Below are positions 7,201 through 22,005 of a stretch of DNA of 22,005 nucleotides, one piece after another; within the stretch, counting starts at the first letter, position 1; each line of letters starts with the position of its first letter. The notes below the pieces were generated by a model. The model ran no database searches. It saw only the letters and a program-made list of their open reading frames with translations, and was not told where the DNA came from. A program made the translations under genes and the position numbers. Source of the DNA: a virus; the IMG/VR virus record IMGVR_UViG_3300030085_001557, positions 1 to 22,005 of that record; one strand, given 5' to 3'.

Positions 7201-10200
7201 TCTCTAACACTATTTTCAGCTGAAGCTATTGCGCCAGCCGAACCACTTATTCCTATAAAAGAGGAACTTATTGAATTGTAATTTTCTATCTGCTCTAACT
7301 TTGTTCTAAAATTTCTTATTCTTTTATCAACAGAACTAAAATTTGCAAAGTTCTCATATCTTCTGTAATCTATATTTAAATCTACGCTATCTAAACTTTG
7401 ACTTAAAAACTCATTCTTTAATTCTGTTGATATAGTTTCATCATCAGTTAGTATTTCATTTTCGTTTTTAAAATCAGAAGTTCTGGCTCTAATAGGACTT
7501 TCCACATTTGCCAAATCAGGAGACCTAAGAACCAATTTACCTTCTTCTGCAGGAATGAAGTCTACAATTTTTACAGACTCAACTACTGGTGAAGCCATTT
7601 CTTTAACTACTATACACTCATCAAACTCAGCAAAGCTTTCAGGTAAAGGTTCGTAAAGTTTGTAAACAACAGAATGTGGATAATCTCCCACACTTATTTT
7701 GTCTTGTTTAAAATTTGTTGTTAGGAATAAATTATTCTCAAACTTTAAATACGTTCTTAAATCTAAAGGATTTAAATTTAAATAACTTACTCTAAATCTT
7801 TCAAATCCATTGTCTGGTGGATTAGTTATATCATAAACTTCTGTTTCTGGATCTTCGTCATTCACTCCCAAATCTATAGCACATTGTTTGTAACTTCTAT
7901 CTAATACAACAAAAGTACCATCAGCTGAAACATCCGTTATCTGTGCTGTAAATGGTCTAAATACTTCTCTTAATGTTGATTGGTCTGTTAGTGTAAAATT
8001 CATATTCATATTATCAACCCAACTTATTCCAAATAAGTCGTTTCCAAGATTGAATGTATGTCCATATATTACAAAAATCCAATCTTCAGTTACTAACCAA
8101 TCATCAGGTATCTCTAATGTTACCGATTTTCTTTCCCAAATATTTGCTTGATTTACTGAAATTAATTCAGACCAAACAGAAGAGTAATTAAATCTAGGAG
8201 GGCTTACCACATTTTGAACCCATTGACTGCCATTCCATCTCCAAAATTCTTGAGGACTTAAAGCTCCTACTCTCGTTGGATTAGTATCAAATGAAAATTC
8301 ACCTGAGTTATCTTCATAGACTATATAACTGCTTTCACCTAAAAGACTAAGAAGTAAATTAGCATTATCAGCTGCCGGATTTCTAGGCCCACTAACCTCT
8401 TCAAAGCTCTTACTACCATCAGCACCATATCTTCTACCACATCGGTAAAAATTGTCTTCTATAGGCGTTGGGGATTCAACTCCATCTGAAGTGGTTGACT
8501 TAGACCTATACACTTGGTCTCCAGCAATATATCTATACCTACCATAACCCTGATTTTTACCAATTATAGCAGTTACACCTTCAGGAAAGTTACTACCCCA
8601 ACCTGCTGTGATAGCAGTAGGACCTGCTATGCTTCCATCTTCCAAATTACCACCATCGTCACCATCAAGCTTTGAGTAATATTGGTCACCACTAAAAAAA
8701 TAATATTTTACAATGTCGTCATCGATTTTGTAAAATACTTCTAACTCTCCATTGTTCTCTAAAACAGTATCATTTAAAGAAACTGGAGCATCTCCAGCAA
8801 CATCTTTTAGAAGCTGAACAGCACTACCATTTCTTACTTGAACTTGGTCATCGCCATAGAAAAAATATCTGTTTGAATCTTCTGTTAAACTTCCATCTTC
8901 ATTTCTATCACCATTATTATAAAAAACAACATAGTAACCACCTTTAATTCCTTCATCAGGTCCTTCACTTACTCTTTCTACAGATTGTAGAAAACCATAT
9001 CTAAATATATCTGTGTATATACTTCTTCCATTCTCTAAATACGTGGTTGTTACTCCACTAAAAAAAGAGAAAAATTTACGAAATTTAAAACTACTTAAAT
9101 TTTGTCTACCATGCTTTTGCTCCCAAATCAAATCGTCTTTAAATAATAATGTTGTTGCGTTAGTTCCTACATTACAGGCAGTTTGCCATCCATTATTTTC
9201 ATTGACTGCTGTAGTTCTTGGAAAGAATGGTTGACCATTACCTTCTAACTGATATGGGTGAGCATTTACAGCATCAGGAAATTCTGCCTGACTAACAGTA
9301 AAATTTGGTGCTACAGGAAATGGTGATTGAAATTCTGGATTTGCTATCCATTGACTTCCATTCCACATCCATTGTTGCTCAGGACTTAATTCTCCTTCTG
9401 CGTCATTTCCTACATTCGGACCCCACTCCAAAGTCAAAGGATCGTTTTGTACATTCACTTCCAATATTACCCAAGCGCCAGCTCCACCCCATATTTCAGT
9501 AGTTGCGCCCTCTATTAAATCATCTAACATAATTGATGGATATTGTAGTAGTAATCCACTAGAATTGTTAGTTGGTGGCATTTCAACTTGTGTAGCTGCA
9601 GAAAAACTATTTTCAACAAAAGTAGGTGGTGGATTTTGTATTCCAGGATTATCTTCTTGTGGTGGAGGTGCTTGTGGGTTGTAGAAACCTTCAGGTGGAT
9701 TATTATCACCAGGAGATTCTTCTGTAATCTCTGCAGTTGGATACTTTAATCTTACTGAAACACCTCTTCCGGCTATACTACCTTTTAAATCAAATTCTAT
9801 ATTAACGAAGTCACCTTCTTTTGCACCTTGACCAGTTAAAGGTAACATTGTTTGAGCAACAGCCATATATCTACTTGGAAGATCGTCAGGCCATTCGTCT
9901 AATGGTACAAAGTTCTGATTAGTATCGGGAAACTTTAAGCAAACTCCACCATTAACTCCTTCACCTCTTACAAAGTGACTATGATAACCTATATGTTCAG
10001 TACCATTGTGTGGATTGCCAGTTGAAAATGAGTTGTAACCTGAATTCCAATTATTTACTGATACAGCTTTAGAATGTAAACTACTATCCCAAGGAAAAGC
10101 ATCTCCTAATGTAATTTCATTTCCATATGTATCCATTTTAGTTGTTTCAAACGCAGGATTTTGAATTGCATTTAATGTTGTCTTTACTGGAACTTCTATT

Positions 10201-17511: not shown

Positions 17512-17733
17512 GTGAAAGAGATAATAACAATGGTAAAAGGATATATAGATGATTTAGTTCATTTATTAACTTCTTTTGTTGCTATAGGTGCTGTTTCTGA
17601 AGTAATATTTGGAACTGGTGTCTTCGGCGTCAATGTTATTGGAAACTTAACATCAATCATAAACACATTCGGCGAATCAGGCTTCGCTGGACTCGTCGCT
17701 TTGTTGGTGTTGGTGGGTTTATTTCGTAAGTAG
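17512..17733 (+). CDS. Small two-helix membrane protein, the only plus-strand gene
   Basis: The 73-residue protein starts at GTG, seven bases after a GGGAG Shine-Dalgarno at 17500-17504. An internal ATG at 17530 lacks a good ribosome site. It has a hydrophobic segment at about residues 12-35 (DDLVHLLTSFVAIGAVSEVI), a polar middle (NLTSIINTFGESG) and a second segment at about 57-71 (GFAGLVALLVLVGLFRK), ending in a short basic tail. This suits a small holin-like or other inner-membrane protein, but no family is recognised. The second half uses more C/G-ending codons (GGC, GTC, CTC) than its neighbours, which may reflect high expression or separate origin. It has its own late-type promoter and a strong terminator straight after it, converging on the sigma gene. 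Confidence 0.78.
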   Translation: MKEIITMVKGYIDDLVHLLTSFVAIGAVSEVIFGTGVFGVNVIGNLTSIINTFGESGFAGLVALLVLVGLFRK

Positions 17734-17742
17734 TTCTAAAAC

Positions 17743-17773
17743 AAAAAAGGGGAGTTTTACTCCCCTTTTTTTT
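17743..17773. terminator. Bidirectional intrinsic terminator between convergent genes
   Basis: GGGGAG (17749-17754) pairs with CTCCCC (17760-17765) around a TTTTA loop, and the flanking six A and eight T add further pairs and give U-runs in both directions. It ends ten bases after the 73-aa gene's stop and abuts the stop codon of the leftward sigma-factor gene at 17772-17774. It is therefore placed to stop both convergent transcripts. Confidence 0.92.
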
Positions 17774-18539
17774 AATTCTCTTTTACAAGAGAACCTGTGT
17801 AACTAACATCAACCATACCTATGGTATCAAACTCGTGTTGTAACCTTTTATTATATTTTTTCATAACATTAATTATGCGAGTTATATGTTGAGTGTTAGA
17901 ACCTGTCATTTCACGAATAAGAATATACAAAGCTTTTTTATTAAAGTTTTCTATACTATCTTTTATTCTGAATATATGTAAAACAGCGTCAGCAACTCTA
18001 ATATCTTTATCTCTACGAAATATATTAGTTAGATTAGAATCCCAAAATCTATGTAACTCATCTATAAATAAAACAGATTTTTCTGATTTCTCAGAATCAG
18101 AACTTTCTCCCATAAGATTTCTTTTATAATCTAAGACATCCATTTCTTGATGTATCTTACCCATCTTATAGTTTTTGTTATTATTTAGTATGAGATAGTT
18201 TTTAGCGACAATACTAAAATAAGAAAATGCTTTACCTTTACCTTCTTTGAATTTGTGCATATTCATAACTAAGAAAGAAACAACTTCGTGTTTTACTTCT
18301 TCAGAACCTACATCAAAGTAATAAAATTTAAATGTGTGAATAATATTTTCAGCTAACTTATCAAAAGCTGCTCTTATATGTTCATTGTAAATTTTATTTT
18401 TTTCAAAAGGACTTTCAGTTTTATTATAAAGTATAATAGCATCTTCTGTACCTTGATTGAAATAATAGTTTTTACCTTTTTTCTTTCTCTTACGAGTTTT
18501 CTTAACTGCTGAACCTGATGTTGCTGTTACTGCTGACAT
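17772..18539 (-). CDS. 55: Late-transcription sigma factor, T4 gp55-like
   Basis: The 255-residue protein has a sigma-70 region 2-like core: VKHEVVSFLVMNMHKFKEGK (83-102) followed by GKAFSYFSIVAKNYLILNNN (102-121), closely resembling the stretch in T4-type gp55 that binds core RNA polymerase and the TATAAATA late promoter. Upstream is a strongly basic N-terminal tail (KKTRKRKKKGK). A linker (MGESSDSEKSEKS) leads to a helical C-terminal region. T4 gp55 is shorter (185 residues) and ends in a hydrophobic acidic motif that grips the sliding clamp. No such ending is clear here (the protein ends VSYTGSLVKEN), so clamp coupling may differ or involve another protein. Shine-Dalgarno AAAGGAG lies 11 bases upstream and the start overlaps the previous stop. 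TATAAATA elements just downstream support the role. Confidence 0.78.
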   Translation of the reverse strand: MSAVTATSGSAVKKTRKRKKKGKNYYFNQGTEDAIILYNKTESPFEKNKIYNEHIRAAFDKLAENIIHTFKFYYFDVGSEEVKHEVVSFLVMNMHKFKEGKGKAFSYFSIVAKNYLILNNNKNYKMGKIHQEMDVLDYKRNLMGESSDSEKSEKSVLFIDELHRFWDSNLTNIFRRDKDIRVADAVLHIFRIKDSIENFNKKALYILIREMTGSNTQHITRIINVMKKYNKRLQHEFDTIGMVDVSYTGSLVKEN

Positions 18540-18799
18540 TATTGTTGTTCTCCTTTGAATCTATTCAATTGATTTATTACTGTATTAATTTGTTTAAATA
18601 TTACTCCAACTTCGTCATCCGCTTCAAAGTAACCTTTGTAATCTATTTTCTTAATTTCCATTTGAATCTTTTCTACTGTATTAATGAAGTCTGTTACCCA
18701 ATCCTCTAATGCTTCTAACTTTGTTGTAATATTCCATATAACATAACAGGAAGTTACAAACAGAACGGACACTAATACAAGACTTATTTCTAAAAACAT
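18539..18799 (-). CDS. Small membrane-anchored coiled-coil protein
   Basis: The 86-residue protein has one N-terminal hydrophobic segment (about residues 3-23, ISLVLVSVLFVTSCYVIWNI) followed by an amphipathic helical region (KLEALEDWVTDFINTVEKIQ; VIFKQINTVINQLNRFKGEQ). The short arm before the membrane and the charged helix after it suggest an inner-membrane anchor with the coiled coil in the cytoplasm, though orientation cannot be settled. The Cys in the segment (SC) is not in a convincing lipobox. It lies between the HD hydrolase (stop at 18800, no gap) and the sigma gene (TAATG). GGAG precedes the ATG. Its length and single anchor leave room for an Rz-like or superinfection-exclusion role, but this is speculation. 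Confidence 0.72.
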   Translation of the reverse strand: MFLEISLVLVSVLFVTSCYVIWNITTKLEALEDWVTDFINTVEKIQMEIKKIDYKGYFEADDEVGVIFKQINTVINQLNRFKGEQQ

Positions 18800-19573
18800 T
18801 TACTTTTCTCCAAACAATTCATCAAAAAGGTCTTGTGATTTCTCACTTAGTTTTGGTGATGGTTGTTTTTTCTTTTCACCACTAACGGCTTGTTTTATGT
18901 TTGTTGCTACCCTAACATTTTCTTCTTCGTCTGCTCGTTGCCACTCATCATATTCGATGTGAGTCGCCATCATATCTGCTTGGTGAAGTATGTACGCTAT
19001 GTTAGATTTTAACGACCAATCGGGGTTGTAAGAAATGTAATAAGACTTATTTGCTTCTTCGTACATACCATCGGTTAGTCGTAATCCGATGTACTCCCAT
19101 TCCGACATTTGAACACCGAAATGATTTAGAAGAAAAATAGCTCGGTCGGTAACTGTCATATATTGGAGTTTCGGATTGTGCTTAAATATTTCTCCTTTAT
19201 TCTTACGATGCCATTCGGAGTCTTGTGGGATATAATAGTCTTGATTTAAATCACCAACCTTACCTAAGTCGTGGTGCATCGCAGCGAATATGAGTTCTTC
19301 ATCGGTGAAGTTAATCATAGCGCCATTAGACTCCCACATCTTTTTAATTTGAATAGCGCAATCAGTTACGTGTAGTACGTGTTCTACATAACCACCAACC
19401 ATAGCATTGTGATAAGCTGACTTACCACTAGCAGGTGCTAATGACATTCTATCCTCAAAGTATTTATACATCTCTAAGAGTTTCTCTTTACGTTCTCCTT
19501 CAAATGTATCTTCAATAAGTTTCATCAACTTATTCCAGTTATCTAATATTTGTTGTTCTGTAAGTTGTTTCAT
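18800..19573 (-). CDS. HD-domain phosphohydrolase
   Basis: The 257-residue protein shows the HD-superfamily metal-binding pattern: H55 and H65 (YHNAMVGGYVEHVLHV), the H101-D102 pair (AAMHHDLGKVGDL), and a late D200 in the helix LHQADMMATHIEYDEW. HD proteins hydrolyse phosphomonoesters or phosphodiesters, often of nucleotides. The layout HN..(G)..EH..HHDLGK resembles phage and bacterial HD hydrolases of the YhaM/dNTPase-like types. The C-terminus (QAVSGEKKKQPSPKLSEKSQ) is basic and probably disordered. It stands in an operon with glycosyltransferase and DUF4338 genes upstream and gp55 downstream. Possible roles are adjusting nucleotide pools, degrading signalling nucleotides of host defence, or RNA processing. 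Sequence alone does not choose between them. Confidence 0.83.
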   Translation of the reverse strand: MKQLTEQQILDNWNKLMKLIEDTFEGERKEKLLEMYKYFEDRMSLAPASGKSAYHNAMVGGYVEHVLHVTDCAIQIKKMWESNGAMINFTDEELIFAAMHHDLGKVGDLNQDYYIPQDSEWHRKNKGEIFKHNPKLQYMTVTDRAIFLLNHFGVQMSEWEYIGLRLTDGMYEEANKSYYISYNPDWSLKSNIAYILHQADMMATHIEYDEWQRADEEENVRVATNIKQAVSGEKKKQPSPKLSEKSQDLFDELFGEK

Positions 19574-20917
19574 TTATCTAACCTCATATCTATTTTTTGT
19601 AAATCTTATTGTTGATTCTGTTCTTAATCTATTTCTGTATGGACTAAAAGATATCCGCACACCCCAGCCGAGATAATCTAATATTTCTTTTTTTGTAACC
19701 GATTTCTTTTTATGTATGAAATCTACGATTTTATCATACGACTCACTTTTATTTCCAATCATATCAAACGAATCAGTTTGTAAAAAACTCCAACCATTAA
19801 ACCATTGAGGAACTCTACTAGCCCACGGAAATTCTTCTATCTTTGTTTTCAAATATTCTTTGGCTTTATCTACACTACCATCATCATCTAAAGCACCATT
19901 CAATCTTTTTAGGAACTCATCTTTACCATCATATAACAATGGATATTCCTTTCCAACCATTTCGGGATAACATAGCTTGTTTGGCAAAATATAAGGAACA
20001 CCCATACTAAGTGAATCTGTTGTTGATATAGACCAAGCAGAGTATTTCTGAAATGTTCCAACACCAACGTGCATTGAACGGATAAAATCTAAATATTCAT
20101 CTCTATCACTTATCTTAACTCTTTTGGAATAAGGTCTATCTAAATCGGCGAGTGTGGTATAGACAGTAAAGTCTTGGCGTTGTTTGTATAATTCATCCAT
20201 TCTGTCTATAAACCAAGTCCAACCTGTATAGTAATTATCTCTATGATTGAAGATAATCGTTTTCTTTTTTGTTGGAACTTCTACATTGTTAATCTTATCT
20301 ATACCAAGATAATGTGGTTGAATGATTTTATCTAACTTAGAAATAATTTCATCATTGTAATATTTCTTAGCCTTCTTCAAAACCAATTCCTTCAACCATA
20401 TACTATTTACACCACACTCTTCCATTTCTAACATACCATTGTAATTGTCCATAAGCATACGCTTACTATAGTTTGTATTTTCATCTACTTCATACCAATG
20501 ACAATAACCAACATATTTAGGAGATATATTAGTGTCATTCTCTAATAGGTTACTCATATTCAATGTATGTTCTGGCAAATGAGAGTACACTACATCATAA
20601 TCAGTTTCTTTCCATCTTAAATTTGCTTTGATTTCATTATAATTAAAATGACATCTCATAGCGTTTGGATAAGATGGTAAGTTAATTGGTATTTGTGTAG
20701 TGTTCTCAAATGTCAAACTTTTGATATCACCTGGTGACATTATTGTCCAATGAATATCATCACGAACTTTATTAAGTTCTTTAATTACATTACGCAAAAC
20801 TACCACATACGAATCTTTTTCTAAGTCACGCATATATGTAATGTTCGGATAAACAAGTATCTTATATGGATACTCTTTATCAGAATCTTTTTCTTTTGTA
20901 AAATCAAATATGTTCAT
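19574..20917 (-). CDS. GT-B glycosyltransferase with C-terminal winged-helix-like domain
   Basis: The 447-residue protein has two Rossmann-like halves as in GT-B enzymes. The N-terminal part starts YKILVYPNITYMRDLEKDSY, and the C-terminal part has KKTIIFNHRDNYYTGWTWFI, later FTVYTTLADLDRPYS, and STTDSLSMGVPYILPNKLCY (297-316), matching the sugar-nucleotide-binding E-x7-E-like region of GT4 enzymes with the first Glu replaced by D. The last 44 residues, KKEILDYLGWGVRISFSPYR followed by NRLRTESTIRFTKNRYEV, look like a winged helix-turn-helix. A DNA-binding-type extension suggests the acceptor may be DNA (a hydroxymethylated or otherwise modified base), but surface polysaccharide or protein targets remain possible. 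It starts four bases inside the DUF4338 stop (ATGA). The GT call is strong; the DNA target is inference. Confidence 0.8.
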   Translation of the reverse strand: MNIFDFTKEKDSDKEYPYKILVYPNITYMRDLEKDSYVVVLRNVIKELNKVRDDIHWTIMSPGDIKSLTFENTTQIPINLPSYPNAMRCHFNYNEIKANLRWKETDYDVVYSHLPEHTLNMSNLLENDTNISPKYVGYCHWYEVDENTNYSKRMLMDNYNGMLEMEECGVNSIWLKELVLKKAKKYYNDEIISKLDKIIQPHYLGIDKINNVEVPTKKKTIIFNHRDNYYTGWTWFIDRMDELYKQRQDFTVYTTLADLDRPYSKRVKISDRDEYLDFIRSMHVGVGTFQKYSAWSISTTDSLSMGVPYILPNKLCYPEMVGKEYPLLYDGKDEFLKRLNGALDDDGSVDKAKEYLKTKIEEFPWASRVPQWFNGWSFLQTDSFDMIGNKSESYDKIVDFIHKKKSVTKKEILDYLGWGVRISFSPYRNRLRTESTIRFTKNRYEVR

Positions 20918-22005
20918 CGACCAACTTCACTTAAATACATTTCTTTAGTTTCCTCCCAAGTCTTTCCCACTATATCTCCATAGAAAAGCTTCTCAGGCTT
21001 TAGTCTACCTTCATCAAATAACTTAGTATATCTTTTGATAGCTTTTGGTTTCCACCACTTCATAATGTAGTCACTATCTTCAGAATACTTTTCTTTCATC
21101 TTTAAATCTTTTTCCTCTATCTCACCTCGTAAAAACTCTTTACCATTCTCATACATATCAGCATAGTAGATACCTCTTTGAAAGCCGTGTTCGTAATCTG
21201 ATGCTTTTATACCAACGGCTCTAAAAATTAAATTAATTGTTTTTTGCTTTACGCCAGTTGGAGGACCTGATACTCCTTCTTTTTGTGTTGTGGCTTTTTT
21301 ATATTCTGATTCCATATTCTCTCTAACCCAATCGTGCCATACTTCATAAGTAGCGTCATCTGGCTTTAGAGCTATTCTACCAACTGATTTACCCATAGTA
21401 CGCCAAAGTGGTATAGAGTTATACATAGAGTGAATACCATACAAAGATGTAGTGGACATACCAACTAATGTTTGCCCATACAGTTTCTTCCAAGCATCTC
21501 TAACTACGGATGATGTAACTAAAGCAGCTACTAACTTACCACCTAAAAAATTATATCCTAATGGTTGAGCACAACATATAGTCGTACCAATAGCAGTATG
21601 TTTTAGTTTACCATCTTTAAATTTATTATCTAAAGACCAACCAATATATTTATCTCTAGCTCCTAACGAGGTTACATCAGAACCTAAACATATAACACCT
21701 AACAATTTGCCTGTTACTTTATCTTTTACAAAGAACTTTAGATTTCTACCAGGATTAGCAGTAAACTCCATAGTATGAATTAGTCTACGAACTAATGTCC
21801 AAGTCTCATTATCTTTAGCATTACCCTGCTCTAACATTTCAACATAAGGTTCTAATGCTAAAAGCTCTATTAGAGTTTGTTCTTTATTGGTGATATCAGA
21901 TGGTGTCCAAATAGAATTATTTATTCTTTTGAACTTAGATGCTTTTTGTGTCATTGAATAAACATCAGCGTTGAACTCTTGCCATTTCTTATAAAGTGTT
22001 TGTTC
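20914..22005 (-). CDS. DUF4338 (DruA-like) protein, 5' end outside the window
   Basis: From the ATG at 21954 the protein would have 346 residues, but the frame is open for 17 further codons to the window edge (EQTLYKKWQEFNADVYS) without a stop or start, and no Shine-Dalgarno precedes 21954. The true start is therefore probably beyond the right edge. Core residues (numbered from 21954): LKFFVKDKVTGKLLGVICLG (72-91), ARDKYIGWS (99-107), CCAQPLGYNFLGGKLVAAL (126-145), WKKLYGQTLVGMSTTSLYGI (155-174), WRTMGKSVGRI (184-194). These fit DUF4338, the family of the Druantia protein DruA, whose RD..IGWS and late TTSLYG-type segments are shared. Phage copies may act in DNA modification or defence interference. 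The homology is by eye; the activity is unknown. Confidence 0.7.
   Translation of the reverse strand, partial: EQTLYKKWQEFNADVYSMTQKASKFKRINNSIWTPSDITNKEQTLIELLALEPYVEMLEQGNAKDNETWTLVRRLIHTMEFTANPGRNLKFFVKDKVTGKLLGVICLGSDVTSLGARDKYIGWSLDNKFKDGKLKHTAIGTTICCAQPLGYNFLGGKLVAALVTSSVVRDAWKKLYGQTLVGMSTTSLYGIHSMYNSIPLWRTMGKSVGRIALKPDDATYEVWHDWVRENMESEYKKATTQKEGVSGPPTGVKQKTINLIFRAVGIKASDYEHGFQRGIYYADMYENGKEFLRGEIEEKDLKMKEKYSEDSDYIMKWWKPKAIKRYTKLFDEGRLKPEKLFYGDIVGKTWEETKEMYLSEVGR

Follow-up and report, generated by a model that had tools for sequence, protein, structure and literature searches.

What do a gene of the DruA (DUF4338) family and a glycosyltransferase (GT) gene do side by side in a virus genome, and is DNA the molecule they act on? 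The question arose from a virus contig of 22,005 bases, which makes up its entire record and is called the window here. An initial annotation, made from its letters alone, had proposed that the two gene products modify phage DNA in two steps or interfere with a host defence. On the minus strand of the window the order is the DruA-like gene (20914–22005), the GT gene (19574–20917), a gene for an HD-domain protein resembling metal-dependent phosphohydrolases (18800–19573; PHROG 28876, E 1e-11, with the Pfam HD match below its cut-off), genes for an 86-aa protein with a membrane-like N-terminal segment (18539–18799) and for a 255-aa protein with no assigned function (17772–18539), and then tail and baseplate genes. 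The 86-aa and 255-aa proteins are conserved neighbours and are used for context only; an assignment of the latter to the T4 late sigma factor gp55 was unsupported (hhalign prob 1.3). A short plus-strand ORF (17512–17733; 73 aa, hydrophobic) lies in a 389-bp gap of the minus-strand gene row, and small opposite-strand ORFs occupy the same junction in some relatives. Elsewhere in the window, positions 188–541 encode a PDDEXK/RusA-like phage endonuclease (PF24608, E 3e-7; PHROG 244, E 3e-20).

The DUF4338 assignment was confirmed, with the ORF at 20914–21954 matching PF14236 (DruA) in Pfam at E 3e-24 and the PADLOC DruA model at E 8e-24. The reading frame stays open up to the contig end, and nearly all homologues are 397 aa long, their start lying 51 codons upstream of the ATG at 21954; the start giving a 346-aa protein is therefore internal and the gene is cut in the window, where it has lost its 5′ end and retains 363 of ~397 codons. 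A structural model was built on the full-length homologue of L002, which is 98% identical, and has a GNAT fold (pLDDT 90). Its top PDB matches by Foldseek are nearly all GNAT acyltransferases, at modest E-values (3e-3 to 1e-1), and DUF4338 has independently been classed as a GNAT domain (PMC10853773). Single-sequence and profile searches of DruA against PDB sequences gave no match. The loop-helix QPLGYNFLGGKL (21532–21567, minus strand) comes after strand 171–179 of the model and forms a (near-)invariant block in 45 homologues, with Q181, P182, G184, N186, G189 and K191 (L002 numbering) as invariant columns. We infer that this block stands where GNAT enzymes have the loop that binds their cofactor (Q/R-x-x-G-x-G/A; here Q-x-x-G-x-N). 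In a separate search of the DruA model against BFVD, the closest named viral structures outside phages were giant-virus proteins (Faunusvirus, E 3e-18; Yasminevirus; Dasosvirus). One related contig, L116, encodes a second, divergent DruA-like ORF (9234–9998; 254 aa) directly upstream of the GT gene with a 4-bp overlap, and also a full DruA 3 kb from it.

A GNAT-like enzyme is known to act on phage DNA: Mom of phage Mu methylcarbamoylates adenine. The window DruA has no match to the Mom family (PF25680), and a direct profile comparison between phage DruA and Mom was not significant (prob 1.8). The two are bridged by short DUF4338 proteins of bacterial metagenome genomes (L239, L240, L246, L247 and L248): with hhalign, a profile of phage and bacterial or plasmid-borne DruA aligned with these short proteins at prob 97.5 and E 9e-12, and the short proteins aligned with Mom at prob 96 and E 3e-9 over 123 columns. 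The DUF4338–Mom score was 65.6; among the controls, 60 column-shuffled Mom alignments did not exceed 21.8 and 19 unrelated families did not exceed 23. Run on the DUF4338 proteins, the Pfam Mom model gave E-values of 1.4e-5 and 5.8e-5, slightly short of its cut-off, and the pattern HY(L/S)G ... (Y/F)(A/V)D ... G..Y.A(A/T)N(W/F)...G is common to DUF4338 and Mom. By these profile comparisons, DruA proteins are distantly related to the Mom family of DNA-modifying enzymes through the DUF4338 bridge, and the relationship would give DruA a concrete chemistry, namely base modification in DNA. In phage DruA the Asp of the (Y/F)(A/V)D motif is lost and TTS (in TTSLYG) stands at that position, so that the reaction may differ from that of Mom. 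A search of the full-text literature found no paper linking DruA or DUF4338 with Mom; one GenBank cyanophage record labels its DruA homologue ‘methylcarbamoylase mom’.

DruA is also known from Druantia type I, and as a fusion to DndF. Similarity to Druantia DruA, seen in the PADLOC match and in alignments with the Meiothermus and Pseudomonas proteins, would fit a counter-defence role without DNA modification, in which phage DruA, as a decoy or a dominant-negative form of the bacterial protein, would disrupt Druantia or similar host systems. We consider this highly improbable: the gene is very deeply conserved among the replication genes of marine T4-like phages with different hosts, the invariant fold-core residues of the 45 homologues point to catalysis over mimicry, and the GT neighbour would be left unexplained. 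The earlier suggestion of interference with a host defence protein found no specific support, and the same holds for Druantia as a system, since a DruE-type helicase with DUF1998/MZB (PF09369) was detected in 0 of 20 related records, which may be fragments, and was found in the control genomes.

The neighbouring 447-aa GT is far less recognisable from its sequence, which matched no Pfam family at E 1 (the GT4 families included), no NCBIfam or PADLOC family, no PHROG family significantly, and no PDB sequence in single or profile searches. Relatives were absent from 50,697 GenBank phages and number at least 80 in IMG/VR. We computed an AlphaFold2 model from an alignment of 33 IMG/VR relatives (pLDDT 89.8), whose closest structures by Foldseek are GT4-type GT-B enzymes: MshA (E 3e-14, TM-score 0.62–0.71), and also PimA, BshA and SenB. 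Against MshA, PimA and BshA in the PDB, E-values were about 1e-10 to 3e-14. The model thus bears out the GT-B assignment of the initial annotation and, by structure only, places the protein among GT4-type GT-B enzymes. Bacterial genomes contained the GT on two MAG contigs only, L149 (NHIV01000037.1, ‘bacterium TMED198’) and L148 (PFHO01000040.1); because L149 carries the GT, DruA and an insert, at least this contig is phage DNA that was binned as bacterial. Apparent short GTs of 360 aa were rejected as real short forms, as their alignment begins at an internal ATG and the true start is probably a non-ATG codon.

Residues ~387–447 of the GT (19577–19759, minus strand) are predicted with high confidence to form a winged helix of three helices (392–404, 409–416 and 425–431) and two short strands (437–439 and 444–446), with a pLDDT of 93–96 across the block. 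The fold agrees with what had been recognised from the sequence, and its extent is about 60 residues, not 44. A profile of the tail matched 110 of the 115 GT homologues and no other protein of the loci, and conservation along the GT is highest in this sixth of the protein (mean identity 65%, against 32–58% elsewhere). The GT fold alone is silent on the acceptor, and the substrates of its PDB neighbours are small molecules or lipids. The pair might decorate a glycan or protein on the virion, on the tail or on the host envelope: the GT would add a sugar, DruA would acylate it, and allele exchange would serve receptor or antigenic variation. Envelope glycans are commonly built by GT4 folds, tail and baseplate genes lie farther along the window, GT alleles are swapped between relatives, and in L080 nucleotidyl transferase, reductase-like and dehydratase genes resembling dTDP-sugar synthesis (7288–9971) stand directly upstream of the GT, which is also a hint at the sugar donor. 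Even so, DruA groups with Mom and DUF4338 rather than with sugar acyltransferases, the GT bears a winged-helix tail, other lineages place the pair among replication genes, and the genes around it are of the restriction and DNA-modification kind rather than sugar ligases or flippases; we regard glycan or protein decoration as quite improbable.

The initial annotation had taken the ATGA overlap between the DruA stop and the GT start (20914–20917, minus strand) as translational coupling of the two genes. The overlap itself, read directly from the sequence, is real, but 7 of the 18 neighbouring same-strand junctions of the window have overlaps of 1 or 4 bp, so that it is weak evidence of pairing when taken alone. 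The recurrence of the arrangement carries more information. The order DruA then GT recurs on dozens of contigs, even where protein identity is as low as ~50%, and 19 loci have exactly the same 4-bp overlap; this recurrence is beyond chance. In L101, L102 and L111 the two genes are flanked by those for the sliding clamp and the clamp loader; in L085, L121 and L042 DruA comes after the clamp, with the GT adjacent to DNA polymerase or one gene ahead of it, and in L085 Mom genes adjoin the GT (clamp, clamp loader and polymerase were identified by hhalign at E 1e-7, 9e-74 and 1e-114, respectively). Cyanophage DruA also lies between clamp-loader genes. This setting among replication genes favours DNA as the substrate.

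The main rival explanation is that the two proteins act separately, DruA being a core gene of the replication cluster with its own DNA-related role, the GT an exchangeable cargo of a hot spot that DruA and the HD gene delimit, and the overlap a matter of operon packing, of which the frequent small overlaps in the window are suggestive. DruA does occur without this GT, in cyanophages, in pelagiphages (90 pelagiphage-type loci had DruA with neither this GT nor Mom within 8 kb), in several contigs of the present group including one of 216 kb, and in L031, L037 and L038, where a nuclease-like gene lies in the gap; among cultured phages, DruA is present in HTVC008M, Mosig and S-SSM7. Across contigs, the identity of DruA tracks that of the HD protein (Spearman 0.70) and the 255-aa neighbour (0.75) and not that of the GT (0.19), and the GT is less than 60% identical in 74 of the 139 contig pairs in which DruA and the HD protein are both at least 80% identical. 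The GT thus varies almost independently of DruA and behaves as an exchanged allele. Separate carriage, which the initial annotation had named as evidence against a joint function, is therefore found in part, both as DruA without the GT and as GT alleles that do not follow the DruA phylogeny, and the idea of an obligatory pair is weakened. Two observations run the other way: the genes are neighbours both at the clamp and clamp loader and in the HD cluster, two unrelated contexts, and nearly all contigs that carry the GT and extend far enough also have DruA. We hold separate action to be possible but somewhat unlikely.

The interval between the two genes is a hot spot for gene insertion. DruA lies upstream of the GT in 59 loci, and in 41 of these the interval holds one or more additional genes, drawn from 42 families, whereas nearby junctions had inserts in 0 of 81 (HD/86-aa), 0 of 81 (86-aa/255-aa) and 0 of 77 (f5/f6) loci. 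At the GT/HD junction inserts were present in 8 of 77 loci and the HD gene followed the GT directly in 69 of 77; the HD gene forms the conserved right edge of the variable locus and is not clearly a member of the module. The inserts that Pfam recognises are mostly restriction and modification genes. Mom (PF25680, 1.8e-40) lies within the interval in 7 loci and beside the pair in others; the interval of L005/L058 holds an EcoRI-family endonuclease (PF02963, 3e-11) adjoining a D12 adenine methylase; N6/N4 methylases are inserted in L013 and L027 and a second D12 methylase in L020; and TAGT, a TET-associated GT (PF20691, 1e-18), is found in L025/L043. Further inserts include a ResIII helicase, GmrSD_N with HNH, HNH_2, Endonuclease_7 and a PLOD-type GT (GT_PLOD), together with about a dozen families that have no Pfam name, several of them nuclease-like by eye. 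Searching the unassigned inserts against NCBIfam and PADLOC gave almost no matches, the exception being a GmrSD/HNH protein that is NsnA-like and PD-T4-2-like. Inspection led us to reject the idea that each nuclease is closely matched to its own GT, as nucleases of one family are found alongside different GT alleles. The interval is empty in the window, in its 98% relative L002 and in the distant L091–L108 and L101–L112 groups, and the empty, overlapping state is therefore probably ancestral. As side observations, the L005/L058 interval also encodes a 514-aa protein that is helicase-like by eye with no Pfam match, and two or three different Mom-family genes occur per 20-kb locus in L066, L045, L048, L101, L085 and L121.

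Base composition bears on how far any DNA mark could extend. Short palindromes are strongly depleted in the window (seen against expected: CATG 2 vs 63, GATC 11 vs 85, CGCG 0 vs 5.5), with no non-palindromic 4-mer under 0.54. The depletion is similar across all related groups and weaker in T4, where, over a 40-kb stretch, GATC alone is low (0.32) and all others are at least 0.68. Avoidance of CATG and GATC argues against a T4-like shield of window DNA from every kind of restriction. The co-occurrence with hydroxymethylase genes that the initial annotation had proposed to survey was not seen: a dCMP/dUMP hydroxymethylase homologue of the thymidylate-synthase superfamily (PF00303) was detected in 0 of 20 related records, many of them fragments, and was found in the positive controls; ThyX was present in 3 of the 20. 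A Tet/JBP search matched neither the 20 records nor the control. With the site avoidance and the lack of a hydroxymethylase homologue in the 20 records, T4-style global protection is not supported or is weakened, and a partial, motif-limited DNA mark is possible despite the depletion.

We favour, at about even chances of being right, a post-replicative DNA-modification and restriction locus in which DruA is a Mom-related transferase and the GT a DNA glycosyltransferase. Of the two-step modification first proposed, DNA modification is the best-supported reading, through the Mom relation, the interval contents, the winged-helix tail and the clamp context. DruA and the GT would be the conserved edges of this locus in marine T4-like phages. 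Most likely, DruA, as a GNAT-fold protein distantly related to Mom, would transfer a small group onto bases of the phage DNA after its synthesis, placing the mark at certain sequences and not everywhere; most likely, too, the winged-helix tail would guide the GT to DNA, to which it would then add a sugar. The sugar might be accepted by the group that DruA had made or, in parallel, by another base. The genes for nucleotide-sugar synthesis that directly precede the GT in L080 would also suit such a transfer. The interval would act in related phages as an uptake site for restriction nucleases, DNA methylases, Mom and more sugar-transfer genes, and its nucleases may attack DNA without the mark or with the wrong one, such as the host chromosome or rival phages. 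The gene order, the folds, the DruA–DUF4338–Mom relationship and the hot spot with its contents are observations; DNA as the substrate, the chemistry and the sequential action of the two enzymes are deduced from them. A bolder version would make all DruA/DUF4338 proteins, that of Druantia included, Mom-like DNA-modifying transferases, and would have the winged-helix GT4 enzyme of these phages glycosylate the DruA-made group, giving a sugar mark without hydroxymethylpyrimidine that is accompanied by exchangeable restriction nucleases; we think this unlikely to hold in full. The locus also shows how restriction and modification genes are exchanged among marine T4-like phages at a single position, flanked by a conserved gene for a putative DNA modifier and by the GT gene, and it makes phage–phage and phage–host DNA warfare readable in sequence.

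Known systems resemble this locus in part. Mom shares with DruA/DUF4338 a distant profile homology and a phage setting, and Mom genes lie inside or beside the DruA–GT locus; a partial, sequence-limited modification of the Mom kind would also suit the site avoidance seen here. Phage DruA differs in being twice as long, in having no direct significant match and in the replaced Asp of (Y/F)(A/V)D, and Mom is not known to act together with a glycosyltransferase. With Druantia DruA the phage protein has in common the Pfam and PADLOC family and the LGGKL and TTS-x-x-G-x-(S)S-x-YN blocks of bacterial DruA, but here it is a phage-borne core gene with other neighbours and without the DruE-type helicase signature in the 20 related records. 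DruA-like proteins have been noted by Phold in Synechococcus T4-like phages (PMC12774648); they match the present gene in family and in their location in the replication cluster and differ in having no GT of this family. The alpha- and beta-glucosyltransferases of T4 are likewise phage GTs near replication genes, with a presumed post-replicative transfer of sugar to DNA. They are, however, members of other GT fold classes, the GT described here has an additional winged-helix tail, T4 has a dCMP hydroxymethylase where the 20 related records have no such homologue, and restriction-site avoidance is stronger here than in T4. A likeness to the TET/5mC-linked DNA glycosylation loci of phages is given by the TAGT gene that L025/L043 carry between DruA and the GT.
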